Below, piece by piece: positions 9,389 to 16,202 of a stretch of DNA of 43,599 nucleotides. Location of the stretch: NCBI GenBank assembly GCA_016866215.1, contig VGNE01000030.1, positions 1 through 43,599 of the forward strand, written 5' to 3'. The notes under the pieces were generated by a model. The model worked only from the letters and a program-made list of their open reading frames with translations. It ran no database searches and had not been told where the DNA came from. The translations under genes were made by a program, and so were the position numbers. This stretch comes from Chloroflexota bacterium (GTDB taxonomy: Bacteria; Chloroflexota; Anaerolineae; Anaerolineales; Villigracilaceae). Position 1 is the stretch's first letter. Each line of letters opens with the position of its first letter.

Positions 9389-10426
9389 ATGATCCCAATG
9401 GCTAACCTAAATCCCGCCCGCGTTCTTGCTATTGAAACCTCCTGTGATGAAACCGCCTGCGCAATCATTGAAAATGGACGCGCGCTTCTTTCCTCAGTGG
9501 TTGCTTCGCAAATGGAAATCCATGCGCGATATGGCGGCGTGTTCCCTGAAGTGGCTTCGCGTCAGCATGTGTTGAGCATCACGCCGGTTGTGGAACAGGC
9601 GCTCGCGCAGGCGCATCTCACGCTTAAAGATATTGACGCGCTTGCCGTCACGCAGGGACCTGGTCTCGCGGGTTCGCTGGTCGTGGGCATGAACATGGCG
9701 AAGGGACTTGCGCTTGGCACGGGTCTGCCGTTGGTAGGCGTCAATCACCTTGAAGGCCATCTTTATTCGGCTTGGGTTCACAATGCGGCCGAAACTGCTC
9801 CTCCTGCGCCGCAATTCCCTTTGATGGCTCTGCTCGTCTCAGGCGGACATAGCGAATTGAATCTCATGACCGATCATTTGACGTATCGAAGACTCGGTTC
9901 CACCCTCGACGATGCTGCTGGTGAGGCCTTCGACAAAGTTGCCCGCCTGTTGGAACTTGGCTACCCCGGCGGACCCGCCATCCAAAAAGCCGCCGAAGAG
10001 GGGGACCCGAATCGATTTAAATTCCCGCGCGCCTGGCTCGAAGGCACATGGGATTTTTCATTCAGCGGATTGAAGACATCCGTATTGTATGAAGTGCGTG
10101 AATTGAAAAAGAAAAGTAATTCATTGCCCATCGCAGACCTGGCCGCATCCTTTCAACAGGCTGTTATAGATGTGCTTTTCAGGAAAACAATGAATGCTGC
10201 ACATGAGTTTGGCGTTAAAGAAATTTTGGTTGCGGGTGGGGTCTCTGCCAACCGCCCCTTGCGCCAAATATTTAGAGCGCAGATTGAATTCCCTGTTCAT
10301 ATTCCCCCGTTATCCTTGTGTACTGATAACGCCGCCATGATTGCCTCGGCGGGATATCACCGTTACGCGCTTGGGCATGTCTCGCAATTGGATATTGATG
10401 TATTGCCGACGTGGCCGCTTTCATAG
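9389..10426 (+). CDS. tsaD: tRNA N6-adenosine threonylcarbamoyltransferase
   Basis: TsaD transfers the threonylcarbamoyl group to A37 of ANN-decoding tRNAs, acting with TsaB and TsaE in bacteria. The 345-residue protein shows the ASKHA-type N-terminus AIETSCDETACAI (about 14-26) and the metal-binding HLEGH (His120 and His124). Further motifs are LLVSGGHSEL (about 147-156), the nucleotide site LDDAAGEAFDKVAR, and CTDNAAMIA near the C-terminus. The start may be ATG 9389 or ATG 9398 (MANLNPARVL); neither has a clear Shine-Dalgarno, and translation may be coupled to the MazF remnant just upstream. It converges with tsaC, the other t6A enzyme, across a strong hairpin. Confidence 0.96.
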   Translation: MIPMANLNPARVLAIETSCDETACAIIENGRALLSSVVASQMEIHARYGGVFPEVASRQHVLSITPVVEQALAQAHLTLKDIDALAVTQGPGLAGSLVVGMNMAKGLALGTGLPLVGVNHLEGHLYSAWVHNAAETAPPAPQFPLMALLVSGGHSELNLMTDHLTYRRLGSTLDDAAGEAFDKVARLLELGYPGGPAIQKAAEEGDPNRFKFPRAWLEGTWDFSFSGLKTSVLYEVRELKKKSNSLPIADLAASFQQAVIDVLFRKTMNAAHEFGVKEILVAGGVSANRPLRQIFRAQIEFPVHIPPLSLCTDNAAMIASAGYHRYALGHVSQLDIDVLPTWPLS

Positions 10427-10430
10427 TAAA

Positions 10431-10506
10431 TACGTAGACAGGTAGGCACGTACACAAGTTCGATCGCGAGTTGGTGTACGTGTCTACCTGTTTCCTTGTA
10501 TACCTG
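10431..10506. repeat. Inverted repeat built of 8-base units
   Basis: Left arm 10439-10455 (CAGGTAGGCACGTACAC) and right arm 10474-10490 (GTGTACGTGTCTACCTG) pair over 17 bases with one mismatch around an 18-base loop. The left arm reads as octamers (CAGGTAGG, CACGTACA, CAAGTTCG). A related octamer tract lies between mdh and the citrate synthase gene at 31464-31525. It lies just after the tsaD stop. Confidence 0.6.
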
Positions 10507-10518
10507 CCCCCATAAGCC

Positions 10519-10554
10519 AAACCGCCGATGACTTGCCCAAGTCATCGGCGGTTT
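10519..10554. terminator. Perfect 17-bp hairpin between convergent tsaD and tsaC
   Basis: Arms 10519-10535 (AAACCGCCGATGACTTG) and 10538-10554 are exactly complementary, ending in A-rich and T-rich bases on either side. Its position between two converging genes suggests a bidirectional terminator. The following T run is short (TTT), so efficiency may be moderate. Confidence 0.7.
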
Positions 10555-10639
10555 ACACAGGAGAATGTAATGCTTATTATATTCAGCGAGTTAAACGTAA
10601 CCTGAGCAATGCCTAAAGAGAAGATGAGAGTTATTTATC

Positions 10640-11248
10640 CTATTTGAGCGCGGCCAACAATTCATCCAGCGATATCGGTCCTTCTCTTAATACCACTGGC
10701 TTTTCCCCGGTGCAATCCACCAATGTGGATGGAACTCCTCCGCGCGTTTTTCCGCCATCCAATATTAATGGAATGCGTCCATTGAGTTGGTCATATACTT
10801 CCTGCGCAGTGGATGGACTTGGCTGACCCGATATATTTGCAGAGGTGACTGCCATAGCTCCGGCCGCACGTAAGAGTGCGCGCGCGTCTGCATGATCGGG
10901 AATGCGGACTGCAACGGTGGAAGTGGCAGAAATGGCCAGGGGGAGAGTCTGCTTTTTGGGGAGAATGCAAGTGAGAGGTCCAGGCCAGAAGCGGGAGGCG
11001 AAACAGAGAGCCATATTTGGGATGTCGTCTGCAACTTTGTCGAGGTCGCTCAAATCTCCGATCAAAATGGGAATGGCTTTTTCGATGGGACGATCCTTTG
11101 CCTTGTAAATGCTTTCAATGGCAGTGTTGTCAAATGCCAGTGCGCCGAGTCCGTAGACGGTATCGGTGGGAAAAGCGACCAGCCCGCCGCTCTGTAAAAT
11201 TTCAAGCGCGTGTCGAATTTCAGTTGTGGGTACGATCTCTGTTTTCAT
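10640..11248 (-). CDS. tsaC: Threonylcarbamoyl-AMP synthase (Sua5/YrdC/TsaC)
   Basis: This enzyme makes threonylcarbamoyl-AMP from threonine, bicarbonate and ATP, the first step of the t6A pathway completed by TsaD. The 202-residue protein has the full YrdC domain: GGLVAFPTDTVYGLG (about 21-35), YKAKDRP (about 47-53), FWPGPLT (about 87-93), VAVRIPDH and AVTSANISG (about 133-141). It lacks the extra Sua5 C-terminal domain, so it is the short TsaC form. Its ATG overlaps the prmC stop in an ATGA, implying translational coupling. It is the last gene of the minus-strand block that ends at the 10519-10554 hairpin. Confidence 0.94.
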   Translation of the reverse strand: MKTEIVPTTEIRHALEILQSGGLVAFPTDTVYGLGALAFDNTAIESIYKAKDRPIEKAIPILIGDLSDLDKVADDIPNMALCFASRFWPGPLTCILPKKQTLPLAISATSTVAVRIPDHADARALLRAAGAMAVTSANISGQPSPSTAQEVYDQLNGRIPLILDGGKTRGGVPSTLVDCTGEKPVVLREGPISLDELLAALK

Positions 11249-12093
11249 ATGAACATGATTTCCAGCAAGCGGTCGTTGCCTGCGAGGTCTTGATGTAAAT
11301 GGATGGTGACATCGGAGAGTGAGTCGTATGCGAGGCTGAGGGCTTGTACGCCGAGGGAGGCTTCGATCTCAAGCAGCAGCATTCCATGAGGCGCGAGCCA
11401 ATCGGGCGCGAATTTGAAGAGGCGACGATACAGGTCGAGGCCGTCTGCGCCGCCATCGAGGGCGAGGGTGGGTTCGCGGCCATAGATGGGGAGTTGCTGT
11501 AACGTTTCAGTGGGGATATATGGAAGGTTCGCACAAATAAGATCAAAGGATGAAGGATGAAGGGTGAAGGATGAATGAGGGAGCAAATCACATTCCACAA
11601 AATCTATTTGATGATGAACGTGGAATTTTTGTGCATTGTGTTTTGCGACTTGCAATGCGGCGTACGAAATGTCTGTTGCGAGGATGCGCGCATCCGGCAT
11701 GTGCATGGCGATGGAAACAGCGATCACGCCTGAGCCTGTGCCGATATCTGCAACAGTTCTTCGTTCTGGCGAGGCTTGAAGCCAGGTAATTGCTTTTTCG
11801 ACGAGCAGTTCTGTTTCGGGGCGAGGGATGAGGACGTCTTTTGTGATGTCGAATTCGAGTCCGAAGAAATCCCAGTGGCCGATGATGTAGGGAAGCGGAG
11901 TCCCTGCCTGGTACTCGTCGAATGCCTGGGTTGTTACGGCAATTTGCGGCACGGTGAGAGGCGTATCCAGGTGGGCGAGCAGCCACGTGCGCGGATGTCC
12001 CAGAGTATGGGCGAGAATGATCTGCGCGTCGAGTTCAGTCGAATCGTTTTTAAGTTGTGAGTTGAGCTGCTTGAGCAATTCTCTCGCGTTCAT
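11245..12093 (-). CDS. prmC: Release factor glutamine methyltransferase
   Basis: PrmC methylates the glutamine of the GGQ motif of release factors RF1 and RF2 using SAM. I start at 12093 (MNARELLKQLNS), which overlaps the upstream permease stop as ATGA. The longer frame adds an unrelated tail. The 282-residue protein has an N-terminal helical domain, the linker motif IPRPETELLVE (about 89-99), the SAM loop ADIGTGSGVIAVS (about 115-127) and the catalytic tetrapeptide, here NLPY (about 189-192) instead of the usual NPPY. Just before it, residues about 172-182 (PHSSFTLHPSS) are encoded by an inserted tandem heptamer repeat. The change of NPPY to NLPY and the insert make activity worth testing. 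Confidence 0.9.
   Translation of the reverse strand: MNARELLKQLNSQLKNDSTELDAQIILAHTLGHPRTWLLAHLDTPLTVPQIAVTTQAFDEYQAGTPLPYIIGHWDFFGLEFDITKDVLIPRPETELLVEKAITWLQASPERRTVADIGTGSGVIAVSIAMHMPDARILATDISYAALQVAKHNAQKFHVHHQIDFVECDLLPHSSFTLHPSSFDLICANLPYIPTETLQQLPIYGREPTLALDGGADGLDLYRRLFKFAPDWLAPHGMLLLEIEASLGVQALSLAYDSLSDVTIHLHQDLAGNDRLLEIMFI
11546..11580. repeat. Tandem heptamer repeat inside prmC
   Basis: Five exact seven-base units on the plus strand read AAGGATG, AAGGATG, AAGGGTG, AAGGATG, AATGAGG. They lie within the prmC coding sequence just before its catalytic motif. The same AAGGATG heptamer recurs at 21392-21419 and 39569-39645, outside core coding regions. Confidence 0.85.
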
Positions 12094-12944
12094 TCTGCAT
12101 TTCCAAACATCATTCGTTCGAGTAAGGTGCGTTGGAAGATGAGGAAGATCACGATGACCGGAATGGACATGATGATGGCAAGCGAGCCGAGATAGCTCCA
12201 CGGTTGCGCGCCGCCTAAATATTGACTTTGCAGGATGGCGTAGATGGACATGGCAAGCGTGACATTGTCACCTTTTTCAACGAATAGCCAGCCTATGGTA
12301 AATTCGGAATAAGCCATTAAGAAAGCGATCAACCCTGCCACCGCAATGGAAGGCAGTGCCAGCGGTAATGTAATGTAGAGAAAAGTTTTGAAGTCGCCTG
12401 CACCATCGAGGAAGGCGGCTTCCTCCACTTCTTTTGGAATGGCTTGAAATGCGGCGCGCATGTTCCAGATACAAAATGGCATGGCGAAGGAAGCATACAC
12501 GATCACCAATGCAAGTAAAGTGGTGCGGATCTTTAGCATGGTGAGCAGAATATAAAGCGGGGTCATGAATGCGACTGGCGGTAAAAATGCTGTCAGCAGG
12601 ATTGCAAAGAGACCCACTTCGCGGCCAGGGAAGCGGAAGCGTGCAAATGCATAGGCGAGGCTGAAACCCAAAATGATTGCGATAAAGGCCGCGCCAAACG
12701 ATACCGTGAGGCTGTTCTTTAATAGGATGTGGAAATCCACCGATTGATAGGGTTTATCCAATACCTGCATGAATGCTTCGCCTGACCATTCTTTTGGAAG
12801 GAAGCGAAACTCAGTTGGGCGTCCTTTAAGAGAGCCGTCAAATGCGAGGCGGAGAGTCCCCCAAATGGGAATGACAACGAAGAAGCCAATCAGCAACAGA
12901 ATGAACTGCGTGGCGAGCTGTTTGATGAACGATATGTTACGCAT
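12090..12944 (-). CDS. ABC sugar transporter permease, MalG-like
   Basis: The protein is 284 residues from the ATG at 12944 (MRNISFIKQL), preferred because GGGAG lies six bases upstream; ATG 12959 in the same frame is possible. Six membrane helices are visible. The cytoplasmic EAA loop reads EVEEAAFLDGAGDFKTF (about residues 185-201), the contact point for the ATPase in carbohydrate-uptake (CUT1) importers. It overlaps the stop of the upstream fusion gene, whose C-terminal half is a MalF-like partner, so the two should form the membrane channel. No substrate-binding protein or ATPase lies nearby; these must be shared or encoded elsewhere. It overlaps prmC by four bases. Confidence 0.88.
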   Translation of the reverse strand: MRNISFIKQLATQFILLLIGFFVVIPIWGTLRLAFDGSLKGRPTEFRFLPKEWSGEAFMQVLDKPYQSVDFHILLKNSLTVSFGAAFIAIILGFSLAYAFARFRFPGREVGLFAILLTAFLPPVAFMTPLYILLTMLKIRTTLLALVIVYASFAMPFCIWNMRAAFQAIPKEVEEAAFLDGAGDFKTFLYITLPLALPSIAVAGLIAFLMAYSEFTIGWLFVEKGDNVTLAMSIYAILQSQYLGGAQPWSYLGSLAIIMSIPVIVIFLIFQRTLLERMMFGNAE

Positions 12945-15075
12945 ATACCACTCCCTCATCTGCCTTGCTCCAGCGATTAAAGATGAATACGAAGATGATC
13001 AGTATCAGCACAGTAATTATGTTGATCACTGCCGAAACCGCAAATTGACCCGTGATGCCGAAGCCGGTTGGGTTGAAAATATTGTAGGAGAGGGTGGCGA
13101 GAGTGGCATCTTGATAATAAAAGGCCTGAAAGAGGTAGAACTGATTGAATGCAAAGATTCCGCGAACAACGATGGCTGGCAAAAGCAAGGGAAGAAGCAA
13201 AGGCCAGGTGACATAGCGGAAGGTTTGCAACGGGCTTGCTCCGTCAATGGATGCGGCGTCGTAAACTTCATGCGGAATCATTTTCAACCCCGTACTTGCG
13301 GCTAACATCATGAACGGGAATCCGTACCAGATGGCTGGCAGGAGGTAAATGATAAGCCATAAGCTGGGTGTATTCTCCCAGCCGTTTAAGAAAGCAAAAG
13401 GTATGTTTGGGCCGAGGGATTTTACAGCCAGCGCCAGCCAGCCTGTTTCTGGATTAAAGATATTCAACCACATAAGCGCGCCGACCATTTCAGGAATTGC
13501 CCAGGGAAGAATGAATAAAGCCTGCCAGAATTTTCCAAGCCGTACTCCGCGCTGCCAGAGGAGAAGCGATACAAAAACACCAAGCACGCCTTGCAGGATG
13601 ACGGATAGAAATGTCCACATGATATTGAAGAAGAGGATGCTGTGTCCGCTTGGTGCGCCAGCGATAAAGTTAAAGACTTGCGGATATGAAGTCAGCCCTG
13701 TGAAGTTGACTTGACTGGGATGTGTTTCGGTATCAAGCGGAGTGATGGGAATTTGACCTGTGATGCCATTCCAAAAGGTGCGCCAGATGCCGCCTTGAAA
13801 CCCATCACGGATGGATGTGACATTGAAGTCGGTTGTGGAGATGGCGATCTGGAAAAGCATTGGGAAAATTGTAAATATAGCGAAGGCGATCAAACCAGCA
13901 GTCAACCATGGTAGGGCGCGGCGAGATTCAGTTTTATGGAAAACAGATGCGGCTTTTGATCTTTTTGAGTTCCACCATGTTAATAAATTATTCCAAAGAA
14001 CGCGCACACCTTCTGCGGCGGATAATGACAACGGCGCAGTGACAATGAGAATATATTGCGGCCATTTTGTGCGCCACACGATAAGGACGAGAATATCGAT
14101 TGCAAGCCACAAGGCAAAGACACGGTTGCGTTCCCACATGCTTTTGAAACCAAAGACCGCCAACATCGCGATAAATGTATCGAGCATGAAGACGAATGCG
14201 GGAGGTTCACTGCGCCAGGGGACAGACATCATCAACCAGTTAAGTTGCTGCCAGAATGGGTAACCCGCATTTGTGACATTTGAATTGGTGGTTGTAAATG
14301 TTACTGCGCTAAAAGATTCTTGTAAGCGCCCAATTGGATCAGGCCAAAAATATGGATTGGCAGCGAAGAAGATCGCAAGTGAAAGCAATCCCCAGCCGAG
14401 GATCGGCAGAAGCGATTTTATTTTTCTTGAGGGGGTGAATTCTTTGCTGGATATGAGCCAATCTACAAGAATGGCGAAGCCAACTGTACCGTGCAGATAC
14501 TTTGAGTCTGCGGCAAAGCCGAGAAGGATTGCTGAGGCAATGAACCATGCACTTTGATTTCTTTTTTTATGTTCAACGTACGCCAGAATGGCGCTCAAAC
14601 TAAGGAGTGCTGAAAGTCCATCGAGCATGACCTGGCTTGTGTATTTGATGGTGAATGTGTGGATCGCGAGGAACAATCCACCAAGCGGATTGACGATGGC
14701 GAGCAGAGCCACAGTCAATGTGCCGAAGATCGCGGTTGCTGTGCGAGCTGCATCGAATAGATCTTCTGGTAAAGATGAAGCGGGTTGTGACGTAATGGAT
14801 ACATCGGCTGCGAGCGGTTGCTCCGGCAGGAAGGAAAATACAATGCCGTACGCGATCTTTGCAAGCGGGGGGTGCTCGGGGCGGTAGTTTGTTTCCAGGA
14901 AGCCAGACCAGTTTGAGGTGCGGAAGAGATGCGCGTATTCCTGTCCCGCGCGGAGATAGTCATCTTCGTCATAGTCAATCGGGAGGTTGTTCAAGGCGCG
15001 CGAACGTACAGCCCACGCTGTAAAAGCAACGAACATGATCGCAATAATGTACAGGGGAGTTTTGATTCGGTTCAT
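12937..15075 (-). CDS. Fusion of membrane glycosyltransferase (ArnT/PMT-like) and MalF-like ABC permease
   Basis: This single 712-residue frame combines two multi-pass modules. Residues about 1-365 look like a GT39/GT83-type polyprenyl-phosphate-dependent glycosyltransferase. They have an acidic motif after TM1 (PIDYDEDDYLRAGQEYA, Asp34-Asp39) and RPEHPPLAK (65-73), which is characteristic of that fold, then about eight or more helices. Residues about 385-712 form a complete MalF-type permease: a first helix LPWLTAGLIAFAIFTIFPML (388-407) and an EAA loop EVYDAASIDGASPLQTFRY (603-621). The downstream MalG-like gene overlaps its end. GAGG lies eight bases before ATG, directly after the prfA terminator. 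The glycosyltransferase part lacks a large C-terminal soluble domain. Joint function unknown. Confidence 0.85.
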   Translation of the reverse strand: MNRIKTPLYIIAIMFVAFTAWAVRSRALNNLPIDYDEDDYLRAGQEYAHLFRTSNWSGFLETNYRPEHPPLAKIAYGIVFSFLPEQPLAADVSITSQPASSLPEDLFDAARTATAIFGTLTVALLAIVNPLGGLFLAIHTFTIKYTSQVMLDGLSALLSLSAILAYVEHKKRNQSAWFIASAILLGFAADSKYLHGTVGFAILVDWLISSKEFTPSRKIKSLLPILGWGLLSLAIFFAANPYFWPDPIGRLQESFSAVTFTTTNSNVTNAGYPFWQQLNWLMMSVPWRSEPPAFVFMLDTFIAMLAVFGFKSMWERNRVFALWLAIDILVLIVWRTKWPQYILIVTAPLSLSAAEGVRVLWNNLLTWWNSKRSKAASVFHKTESRRALPWLTAGLIAFAIFTIFPMLFQIAISTTDFNVTSIRDGFQGGIWRTFWNGITGQIPITPLDTETHPSQVNFTGLTSYPQVFNFIAGAPSGHSILFFNIMWTFLSVILQGVLGVFVSLLLWQRGVRLGKFWQALFILPWAIPEMVGALMWLNIFNPETGWLALAVKSLGPNIPFAFLNGWENTPSLWLIIYLLPAIWYGFPFMMLAASTGLKMIPHEVYDAASIDGASPLQTFRYVTWPLLLPLLLPAIVVRGIFAFNQFYLFQAFYYQDATLATLSYNIFNPTGFGITGQFAVSAVINIITVLILIIFVFIFNRWSKADEGVVYA

Positions 15076-15125: not shown

Positions 15126-16202
15126 TTACTCATCGTCATCCACACCTGTCGCGGCCAGGCGTTCCGACTCATCTTGAGTGGAGAGTTGGTCAATGAATTG
15201 ATCTATCGCGCCATCCAGGACCGCGGGCAGGTTGTAACTTGAATATCCAATGCGATGATCTGTAACGCGATTTTGCGGATAATTATATGTGCGGATTTTT
15301 TCCGAACGATCACCCGATCCAACCTGCGAGCGGCGATCTGCTTCGAGTTCTGCGCGCGCCTTCGCTTCTTCGATTTCATACAATCGGGCGCGCAAGATGC
15401 TCAGGGCGCGTAATTTATTTTGCAGCTGCGAGCGTTCATCTTGACAGGTGATGATCATACCCGTTGGCTTGTGATGCAATCGCACGGCAGTGGAGTTCTT
15501 CTGCACGTTTTGTCCCCCCGCGCCAGAGGAGCGATAGACTTCGATAATAATATCGGATTCGGGAATGTCAACTTCCACATCGTCCACTTCTGCGAGTACG
15601 GTCACAGTGGCCGTGGAGGTATGAATGCGCCCTTGTGATTCGGTGGTTGGCACACGCTGCACGCGATGCACGCCCGACTCATATTTCAACTTTGAGTATG
15701 CGCCCTTGCCTTTGACCTCAAATATCACTTCTTTATAACCGCCCACGCCGATGGCGCTTTCGGACATGGCTTCGATCTTCCAGCGTTTGCCTTCCGCGTA
15801 ACGCGTATACATGCGGAACAAGTCTGCCGCGAAGATGGCGGCTTCGTCACCGCCTGCGCCTGCGCGAATTTCAAAAATGACGTTCCTGTCATCGCGCGGG
15901 TCTTTAGGCACAAGCATGCCTCTGATCTCTTTTTCCAGGGCTTCGATCTTGGGGGTGAGCTCATCCACGTCCGCTTTGGCGAGCGCGATCAACTCCGCAT
16001 CATTTTCGGATATGATCATGCCCCTGGCTTGCTCCAGGCTTTTCATCGCCTGGCGGTATTCCCGCGACTTTATAACGAGGGGTTCCAGGTCTACGCGTTC
16101 TTTGTTGATCTCGCCGGCGCGTTGATAGTTACTGCCTACCTCCAGCAGTTCCTTGTCAAGTTGTTCATATTTTTCTTCAATGGCCTGTAATTTGTCGAGC
16201 AT
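15126..16202 (-). CDS. prfA: Peptide chain release factor 1
   Basis: RF1 recognises UAA and UAG in the ribosomal A site and triggers peptide release. The 358-residue protein is of usual length. It has the N-terminal helical domain (about 1-110), the RAGAGGDEAAIFA region (113-125), and the catalytic GGQ in SSGAGGQNVQKN (Gly229-Gln231). The Gln is the target of PrmC, encoded downstream on the same strand but separated by two transporter genes and a terminator. GAGG lies six bases before ATG. The preceding gap (16203-16387) contains no gene. Confidence 0.97.
   Translation of the reverse strand: MLDKLQAIEEKYEQLDKELLEVGSNYQRAGEINKERVDLEPLVIKSREYRQAMKSLEQARGMIISENDAELIALAKADVDELTPKIEALEKEIRGMLVPKDPRDDRNVIFEIRAGAGGDEAAIFAADLFRMYTRYAEGKRWKIEAMSESAIGVGGYKEVIFEVKGKGAYSKLKYESGVHRVQRVPTTESQGRIHTSTATVTVLAEVDDVEVDIPESDIIIEVYRSSGAGGQNVQKNSTAVRLHHKPTGMIITCQDERSQLQNKLRALSILRARLYEIEEAKARAELEADRRSQVGSGDRSEKIRTYNYPQNRVTDHRIGYSSYNLPAVLDGAIDQFIDQLSTQDESERLAATGVDDDE

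Follow-up and report, generated by a model that had tools for sequence, protein, structure and literature searches.

Why would a bacterial gene join a glycosyltransferase to the pore of a sugar importer in one polypeptide, and is the union real? The question is raised by an open reading frame (ORF) at positions 12937-15075 of contig VGNE01000030.1 (assembly GCA_016866215.1), from a Chloroflexota bacterium of the family Villigracilaceae; the whole 43,599-nucleotide stretch that was analyzed is called the window below. The N-terminal half of the encoded protein resembles GT-C glycosyltransferases of the PMT type, and the C-terminal half is a MalF-type permease of an ATP-binding cassette (ABC) importer. 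We conclude that the fusion is no artifact but a membrane protein of two domains that is old in the Chloroflexota. As to its function, we tentatively favor a PMT-like enzyme that the fusion tethers to an importer, with the transporter's lipoprotein partners as its likeliest substrates. The GT-C glycosyltransferases and the ABC sugar importers each form a large, well-studied class, and their conserved covalent union is undescribed in the literature searched: we found no account of a glycosyltransferase-MalF fusion in open-licence PubMed Central, a collection without most subscription journals and preprints. This agrees with the original prediction for the locus, made from the sequence, which knew of no described system with this architecture.

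The prediction of one uninterrupted 712-codon frame was confirmed, with the addition that the gene lies on the minus strand; the plus strand of the same interval is riddled with stops. The acidic motif, the EHPPLAK motif and the EAA loop at residues 603-621 were located as predicted, and the MalG-like partner (ORF 12090..12959) does overlap the end of the fusion (Table 1). Pfam searches of the protein matched PMT_2 at residues 131-237 (33.2 bits, cut-off 26.1) and BPD_transp_1 at residues 498-702 (52.8 bits, cut-off 26.4). The best NCBIfam match to the C-terminal half was MalF, at 86 bits and far under the equivalog cut-off of 392.

The conservation of the fusion was assessed in two samples, which share some genomes: 61 related genomes, the window's own included, and the GTDB species genomes scanned with an alignment of the glycosyltransferase half, from which 80 loci are listed of 96 confirmed. 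One uninterrupted frame runs over the junction in 26 of the 61 related genomes, four of which end at contig ends (G002, G009, G012 and G043); in a further genome (G016, locus L118) the halves stand in separate frames, and the other 34 have a best match that is no fusion. With G016 counted, 24 of the 27 genomes with both halves belong to the genus of the window, which is represented by 37 genomes, and the remaining three, all with the fusion (G043, G049 and G056), fall into two other families. By profiles, both halves lie in one frame in 69 of the 80 listed loci, all 80 of which carry titles of Chloroflexota taxa. The 69 include partial members that lack the start of the glycosyltransferase half (L117, L131, L132, L144), are split within it (L119) or within the MalF half (L146), or end early in the MalF half (L080, L103). 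The remaining 11 comprise two loci whose halves are out of frame with each other at the linker (L116 and L118), three left incomplete by truncation, breakage or a contig end (L128, L129, L136), and six lone glycosyltransferase genes with no MalF nearby (L133, L138, L139, L140, L142, L143). These results bear directly on the possibility, raised in the original prediction, of a chance fusion or an assembly error. The frame-split loci L118 and L116 could be read in its favor; against it stand the intact frames in both samples, which come from many independent assemblies, including two single-contig ones (G020 and G025). The separate genes in relatives by which the prediction proposed to recognize such an accident were not found in the 69 one-frame loci.

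Selection on the two halves was estimated as the ratio of nonsynonymous to synonymous substitution rates (dN/dS). In the four closest pairs (L067/L068, L104/L105, L081/L082 and L082/L084) the ratio was 0.12-0.22 for the glycosyltransferase half and 0.06-0.13 for the MalF half, at high dS values of 0.59-0.93 and 1.02-1.24, respectively; the run as a whole gave 92 pairs with dS below 1.5, most of them distant or composition-skewed, with ratios up to 0.82. As judged from these codon comparisons, both halves are under purifying selection in the closest pairs. Conservation over the Chloroflexota and this selection on both halves refute a chance origin, and we reject chance fusion and assembly error alike, leaving them a negligible probability.

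In a phylum-wide sample of 400 genomes the glycosyltransferase domain was detected at an expectation value (E) of 1e-15 in 30, in several architectures. On a quick tree of 100 rows, in which the window lies closest, among relatives with names, to CFX4, CHL2 and a metagenome-assembled genome of Candidatus Villigracilaceae, the label 'fusion' takes eight changes (at least five by the starred branches), so a single origin of the fusion is not established. Two relics of the gene, which point to loss, were also seen: in G052 (L061:6236-6843) the start of the glycosyltransferase (residues 1-73) is followed directly by the end of MalG (171-289), and in G448 (L191:9939-10169) the start of the glycosyltransferase lies at prmC.

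To which enzymes does the N-terminal half belong? The original prediction called it ArnT/PMT-like and proposed a structure prediction of the full chain with its partner; we modeled the fusion chain, and the model shows a PMT fold in the first half and a SugA/MalF fold in the second. The full-chain AlphaFold2 model reached a mean predicted local distance difference test score (pLDDT) of 91.6 and a predicted template modeling score of 0.90; in the linker the block means are 62 at residues 371-380 and 78 at 381-390. A Foldseek search with it placed MalF and SugA on top and Pmt4 and ArnT lower, and VIA-align superposed residues 2-475 on Pmt4 with a Z-score of 28.2. The glycosyltransferase half modeled alone (pLDDT 95.2) matched Pmt4 (9i5l_A) at Z 27.3, with a root-mean-square deviation (rmsd) of 3.2 over 339 aligned residues and 14% identity, followed by Pmt1-Pmt2 (Z 27.1), ArnT (Z 24.9) and oligosaccharyltransferase (Z 24.1). 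The predicted fold is thus nearer to PMT than to ArnT, a likeness that is no proof of function. At E 0.01, 12 of 20 glycosyltransferase halves match PMT_2 and two match PMT, which puts the match at the edge of the family.

The best fold match is therefore to the PMTs of family GT39 (Pmt1-Pmt2, Pmt4 and actinobacterial Pmt), with which the half also shares the PMT_2 and PMT Pfam matches and two sequence features of the PMT family: a DE motif, placed in the first outer loop, and an HPP motif. It differs from them in having no MIR or other extra domain and in a C-terminus that continues into an ABC permease. ArnT (GT83) carries a soluble C-terminal periplasmic domain; the GT-C fold is common to both, but that domain is absent from the fusion, whose C-terminal half matches SugA/MalF. 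Identification of the half as ArnT proper was rejected on the missing domain and the weaker fold match, and no evidence was found that links it to lipid A chemistry.

Motif conservation was compared over 99 glycosyltransferase-domain rows (68 fusion, 3 split, 5 tandem, 10 propeller and 13 lone, the last two architectures, described below, being assigned by locus); matches covering fewer than 300 profile positions were left out, as were L147-L156, L158, L163 and L176, many of them from genomes that the comparison already covers. Residues D34, D36, E37 and Y40 are held, with few exceptions, across fusion, tandem, propeller-fused and lone copies, and D36, E37, K73, R111, K192, Q276, K337, W338 and Y341 are nearly always kept across all rows. 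Among fusion rows with the letter present, D36 is found in 65/65, E37 in 65/66 and H68 in 67/68, one fusion row having Y at position 68; over all 99 rows H68 is found in 98 and P69 in every one. Within the KWPQY motif, W338 and Y341 are invariant (99/99), K337 is kept in 98/99 and Q340 in 97/99. Position 152 is D or E in 99/99 rows and may match D233 of Streptomyces coelicolor Pmt (ScoPMT), whose active-site residues are given as D113, H159, D233 and R510 in PMC12757957.

In a topology inferred with the N-terminus inside and ten helices taken from the model, 17 of the 19 polar or charged residues that are kept in at least 95% of 55 sequences fall in outer zones, two in the core and none in inner zones, the zones being of unequal size (outer 205, core 88 and inner 93 residues). 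Predicted inner zones hold 18 K+R against 5 D+E, and outer zones 11 K+R against 19 D+E. The glycosyltransferase half is maintained and, from these patterns, looks like a working enzyme. A non-catalytic role, in which the half would bind a lipid-linked sugar and, as a sensor or scaffold, gate the permease, would suit its length of about 375 residues, shorter than the matched PMT and ArnT chains, and its lack of a C-terminal domain of its own. Dead enzymes typically do not keep their acidic and basic motif residues, as this one does in common with the non-fused copies, and we regard such a role as very unlikely.

What surrounds the gene elsewhere? We classified the 69 one-frame loci with a distance rule of 3.5 kb. 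The fusion lies in a maltodextrin-type uptake locus in 36 (some of them recognized by a single marker, for example L117, L132, L137, L144 and L145), next to prfA, prmC or both, the window's own setting, in 23 (L094 being entered on prmC alone), and in another or undecided setting in 10. MalG follows directly in 64 of the 69; three further loci have no contig room for it, in L130 the MalG frame overlaps the fusion and was missed by the rule, and in L146 MalG comes only about 2.5 kb on. The fullest operon encodes a ROK regulator, a binding protein, MalF, MalG, a lipid-anchored GH13 enzyme, the fusion, a second MalG and a cytoplasmic GH13 enzyme, often with MalK first; an ordinary MalF/MalG pair is also present in most fusion-bearing organisms. 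The genome of the window has this operon on contig C35, without the fusion. At E 1e-60 the operon's binding protein was detected in 23 of the 27 fusion genomes and in 4 of the 34 others (Fisher p 8e-9, uncorrected for kinship). It went undetected in four of the fusion genomes, namely G003 (96% complete), G010 (87%), G013 (71%) and G026 (99%), and no binding protein was found beside the fusion copies in the prfA/prmC context.

The same glycosyltransferase domain is also found with another C-terminal module. In G048 (L058:9295-11466) it is fused to a Reg_prop beta-propeller within the same kind of operon, and related genes occur in genomes of family f36 (L177-L181), which we take to be Chloroflexaceae-like. 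There the gene lies a few bases after MalG in L177, L178 and L181; it follows MalG and GH13 genes in L179, as in L058, and L180 has no such neighbors. The propeller was confirmed by Pfam in L178 and L058 and is assigned by similarity in the others. In this form the propeller replaces the permease as the C-terminal module, and the pore half is missing. Lone glycosyltransferase copies stand immediately upstream of the fusion in five of the 80 listed loci (L083, L084, L092, L104 and L105); these tandem loci form one supported group in the tree and probably reflect one old duplication. Separately, L188 (G070):3438-5186 holds a 583-residue glycosyltransferase frame with no Pfam match after MalF, MalG and GH13 genes.

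These architectures bear on whether the fusion need have any function beyond gene dosage, that is, whether a glycosyltransferase for envelope glycans or proteins and an importer are merely co-expressed with no functional hand-over. Such an arrangement is in keeping with a domain found joined to MalF, joined to a propeller and by itself, and with a variable linker, which is the conservation minimum of the chain (mean 0.43 at residues 361-380). It accounts poorly for the retention of a single junction through long divergence in the 69 loci and for the propeller form, which occurs in similar uptake loci without any MalF fusion. We consider co-expression alone unlikely.

Is the permease half itself an importer subunit? 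By profile it matches E. coli MalF at E 7.6e-30, with the EAA segments aligned, and in the EAA loop D611 and G612 are invariant in 55/55 fusions. Residues 380-703 of the model superpose by VIA-align on SugA (7cad_A) at Z 24.4 and rmsd 2.7, and on MalF at Z 23.7. MalFGK2 and LpqY-SugABC, the type I importers of the CUT1 class, share with the fusion this fold, the EAA loop, an adjacent MalG and a MalK-type ATPase in the genome: OB_MalK was found once each in the genome of the window and in G003, G020, G026 and G031 and was not found in the less complete G010 and G013, so five of seven genomes were positive. Unlike MalF and SugA, the fusion has no large P2 domain and carries a 375-residue enzyme in front, and in the prfA/prmC context it has no binding protein alongside.

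The pocket differs as well at the positions that we presume to be the maltose contacts of E. coli MalF (N376, S329, N440 and G380), mapped by hand from alignments. W525, E529 and Q645 are present in 55/55 fusions. The position of E. coli N376 is A, G or S in 55/55 fusions, and 15 of the 16 regular MalF proteins have N there; that of S329 is E and that of N440 is Q in 55/55 each, and G380 is kept in 55/55. Among regular MalF proteins, the W is shared by 3/16 and the Q by 1/16. (The regular-MalF profile used in locus annotation included one fusion fragment, L059.) A pocket that is conserved but unlike that of regular MalF suggests, from the residues, a ligand of its own.

This brings up the other option of the original prediction, namely coupling. 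The glycosyltransferase half could act on the sugar itself and MalF/MalG import the product, in a salvage or group-translocation-like route: a lipid-linked sugar would be moved onto an incoming oligosaccharide, or freed from its carrier at the outer mouth. It is possible that the transferred sugar is the transported sugar. Enzyme and pore in one chain with its own MalG, the invariant but distinct pocket, the prfA/prmC copies with no binding protein found beside them, and G003 and G026, which have the fusion without the operon's binding protein, would all suit such a route. It has to contend with the lone copies that have no MalF nearby and with the propeller-fused form that has no pore half; moreover, we know of no GT-C enzyme that passes its product to a transporter. 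On balance we judge this route rather unlikely. Stated more broadly, the protein may belong to an importer that couples outer-leaflet sugar chemistry to uptake, with the GT-C enzyme using a lipid-linked sugar at the importer mouth; this is conceivable, if doubtful, and has two options, modification of a docked binding protein or production of a molecule made for the W525/E529/Q645 pocket. If it is true, the protein would be a covalent enzyme-importer machine, for which we know of no counterpart.

The reading that we tentatively prefer, a PMT-like enzyme tethered to the importer, can be laid out as follows. The N-terminal half would be a GT-C glycosyltransferase with its active site facing outward, joined through a short linker on the cytoplasmic side to the MalF-type half. 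The latter would pair with the adjacent MalG and with a MalK-type ATPase whose gene lies elsewhere in the genome, and so make up a second type I sugar importer in addition to the ordinary MalF/MalG pair. The enzyme would take a hexose off a polyprenyl-phosphate carrier and transfer it to an acceptor at the outer face of the transporter; the likeliest acceptors would be Ser/Thr residues in the Thr/Pro-rich stalks of the binding protein or of the lipid-anchored GH13 enzyme, or permease loops. In other GT-C enzymes, MIR or periplasmic domains recognize the acceptor, and by our own analogy the permease would replace this C-terminal module. The tethered-enzyme reading is supported by the one-frame fusions in both samples, the fold matches of the two halves, the motif residues common to all architectures, the co-occurrence of the binding protein, the uptake-locus setting, the adjacency of MalG, the OB_MalK matches, the predicted outward position of the conserved residues, the purifying selection, and the position after MalG that the propeller-fused enzyme domain likewise takes. 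Two papers offer parallels: targets of S. coelicolor Pmt include ABC binding lipoproteins, with a phosphate ABC permease among the glycoproteins (PMC6593405), and acceptor recognition is described for a tuberculosis PMT (PMC12757957). Candidates for a GT2 synthase of the donor comprise 24 unclassified PF00535 matches.

Several observations weigh against this reading. A profile of the glycosyltransferase half gave no match to PDB sequences even at E 10. The genome of the window contains 20 other frames that match PMT_2, 18 of them above the cut-off. Thr/Pro stalks are found elsewhere in the same genome (of six other SBP_bac_8 proteins, two have ATEAP repeats and two have shorter stretches), which makes it less likely that stalk glycosylation is peculiar to this operon, and the fusion-operon binding proteins of L044, L050 and L052 are nearly without such a stalk. 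The nearly complete genomes G003 and G026 have the fusion and not the binding protein, so the latter cannot be the sole acceptor. The invariant pocket fits a separate transport role and would be needless for mere docking, and the relics in G052 and G448 suggest that the gene can be lost. Finally, whereas the fusion, its conservation and its locus association are established and the folds and outward-facing residues are predicted, catalysis, donor, acceptor and ATP-driven transport are inferred, and for the donor and the acceptor this counts against the reading.

Were the two activities to work together, it would follow that bacteria can modify proteins or glycans right at a nutrient transporter, or link import to the chemistry of lipid-linked sugars. 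A second system for studying the domain, perhaps in cultured organisms, is offered by the propeller-fused sister form that follows MalG in the Chloroflexaceae-like genomes.

Table 1. Features of the fusion gene and its neighbors, in window coordinates; topology is predicted.
Feature	Position	Strand	Remarks
Glycosyltransferase-MalF fusion ORF	12937..15075	minus	712 aa; ATG at 15075, stop 12937-12939
GT-C / PMT-like half	13960..15075	minus	residues 1-372; by our reading, the model has 10 membrane helices
Acidic motif DYDEDDY	14956..14976	minus	residues 34-40 (IDYDEDDY = 33-40); first extracytoplasmic loop, predicted topology
EHPPLAK motif	14857..14877	minus	residues 67-73
KWPQY motif	14053..14067	minus	residues 337-341; outer end of membrane helix 10, predicted topology
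Linker between halves (fusion point)	13918..13977	minus	residues 367-386; variable, positively charged
MalF-type ABC permease half	12940..13917	minus	residues 387-712
EAA loop	13213..13269	minus	residues ~603-621; ATPase coupling site in the MalF family
malG-like partner permease	12090..12959	minus	BPD_transp_1, 64.6 bits; overlaps 3' end of the fusion
prfA (release factor 1)	15126..16202	minus	upstream neighbor; NF001859, 485 bits (cut-off 400)
prmC (release factor methyltransferase)	11245..12201	minus	downstream neighbor; TIGR03534, 238 bits (cut-off 199)

In the window, prfA, the fusion, malG and prmC share one strand and follow each other in that order. Close to prmC and prfA lie two further ORFs, which we take to be TsaD-like (9389-10426) and Sua5/TsaC-like (10640-11248); this group of ORFs (9389-11248) is retained in many of the relatives in which the fusion has the prfA context.

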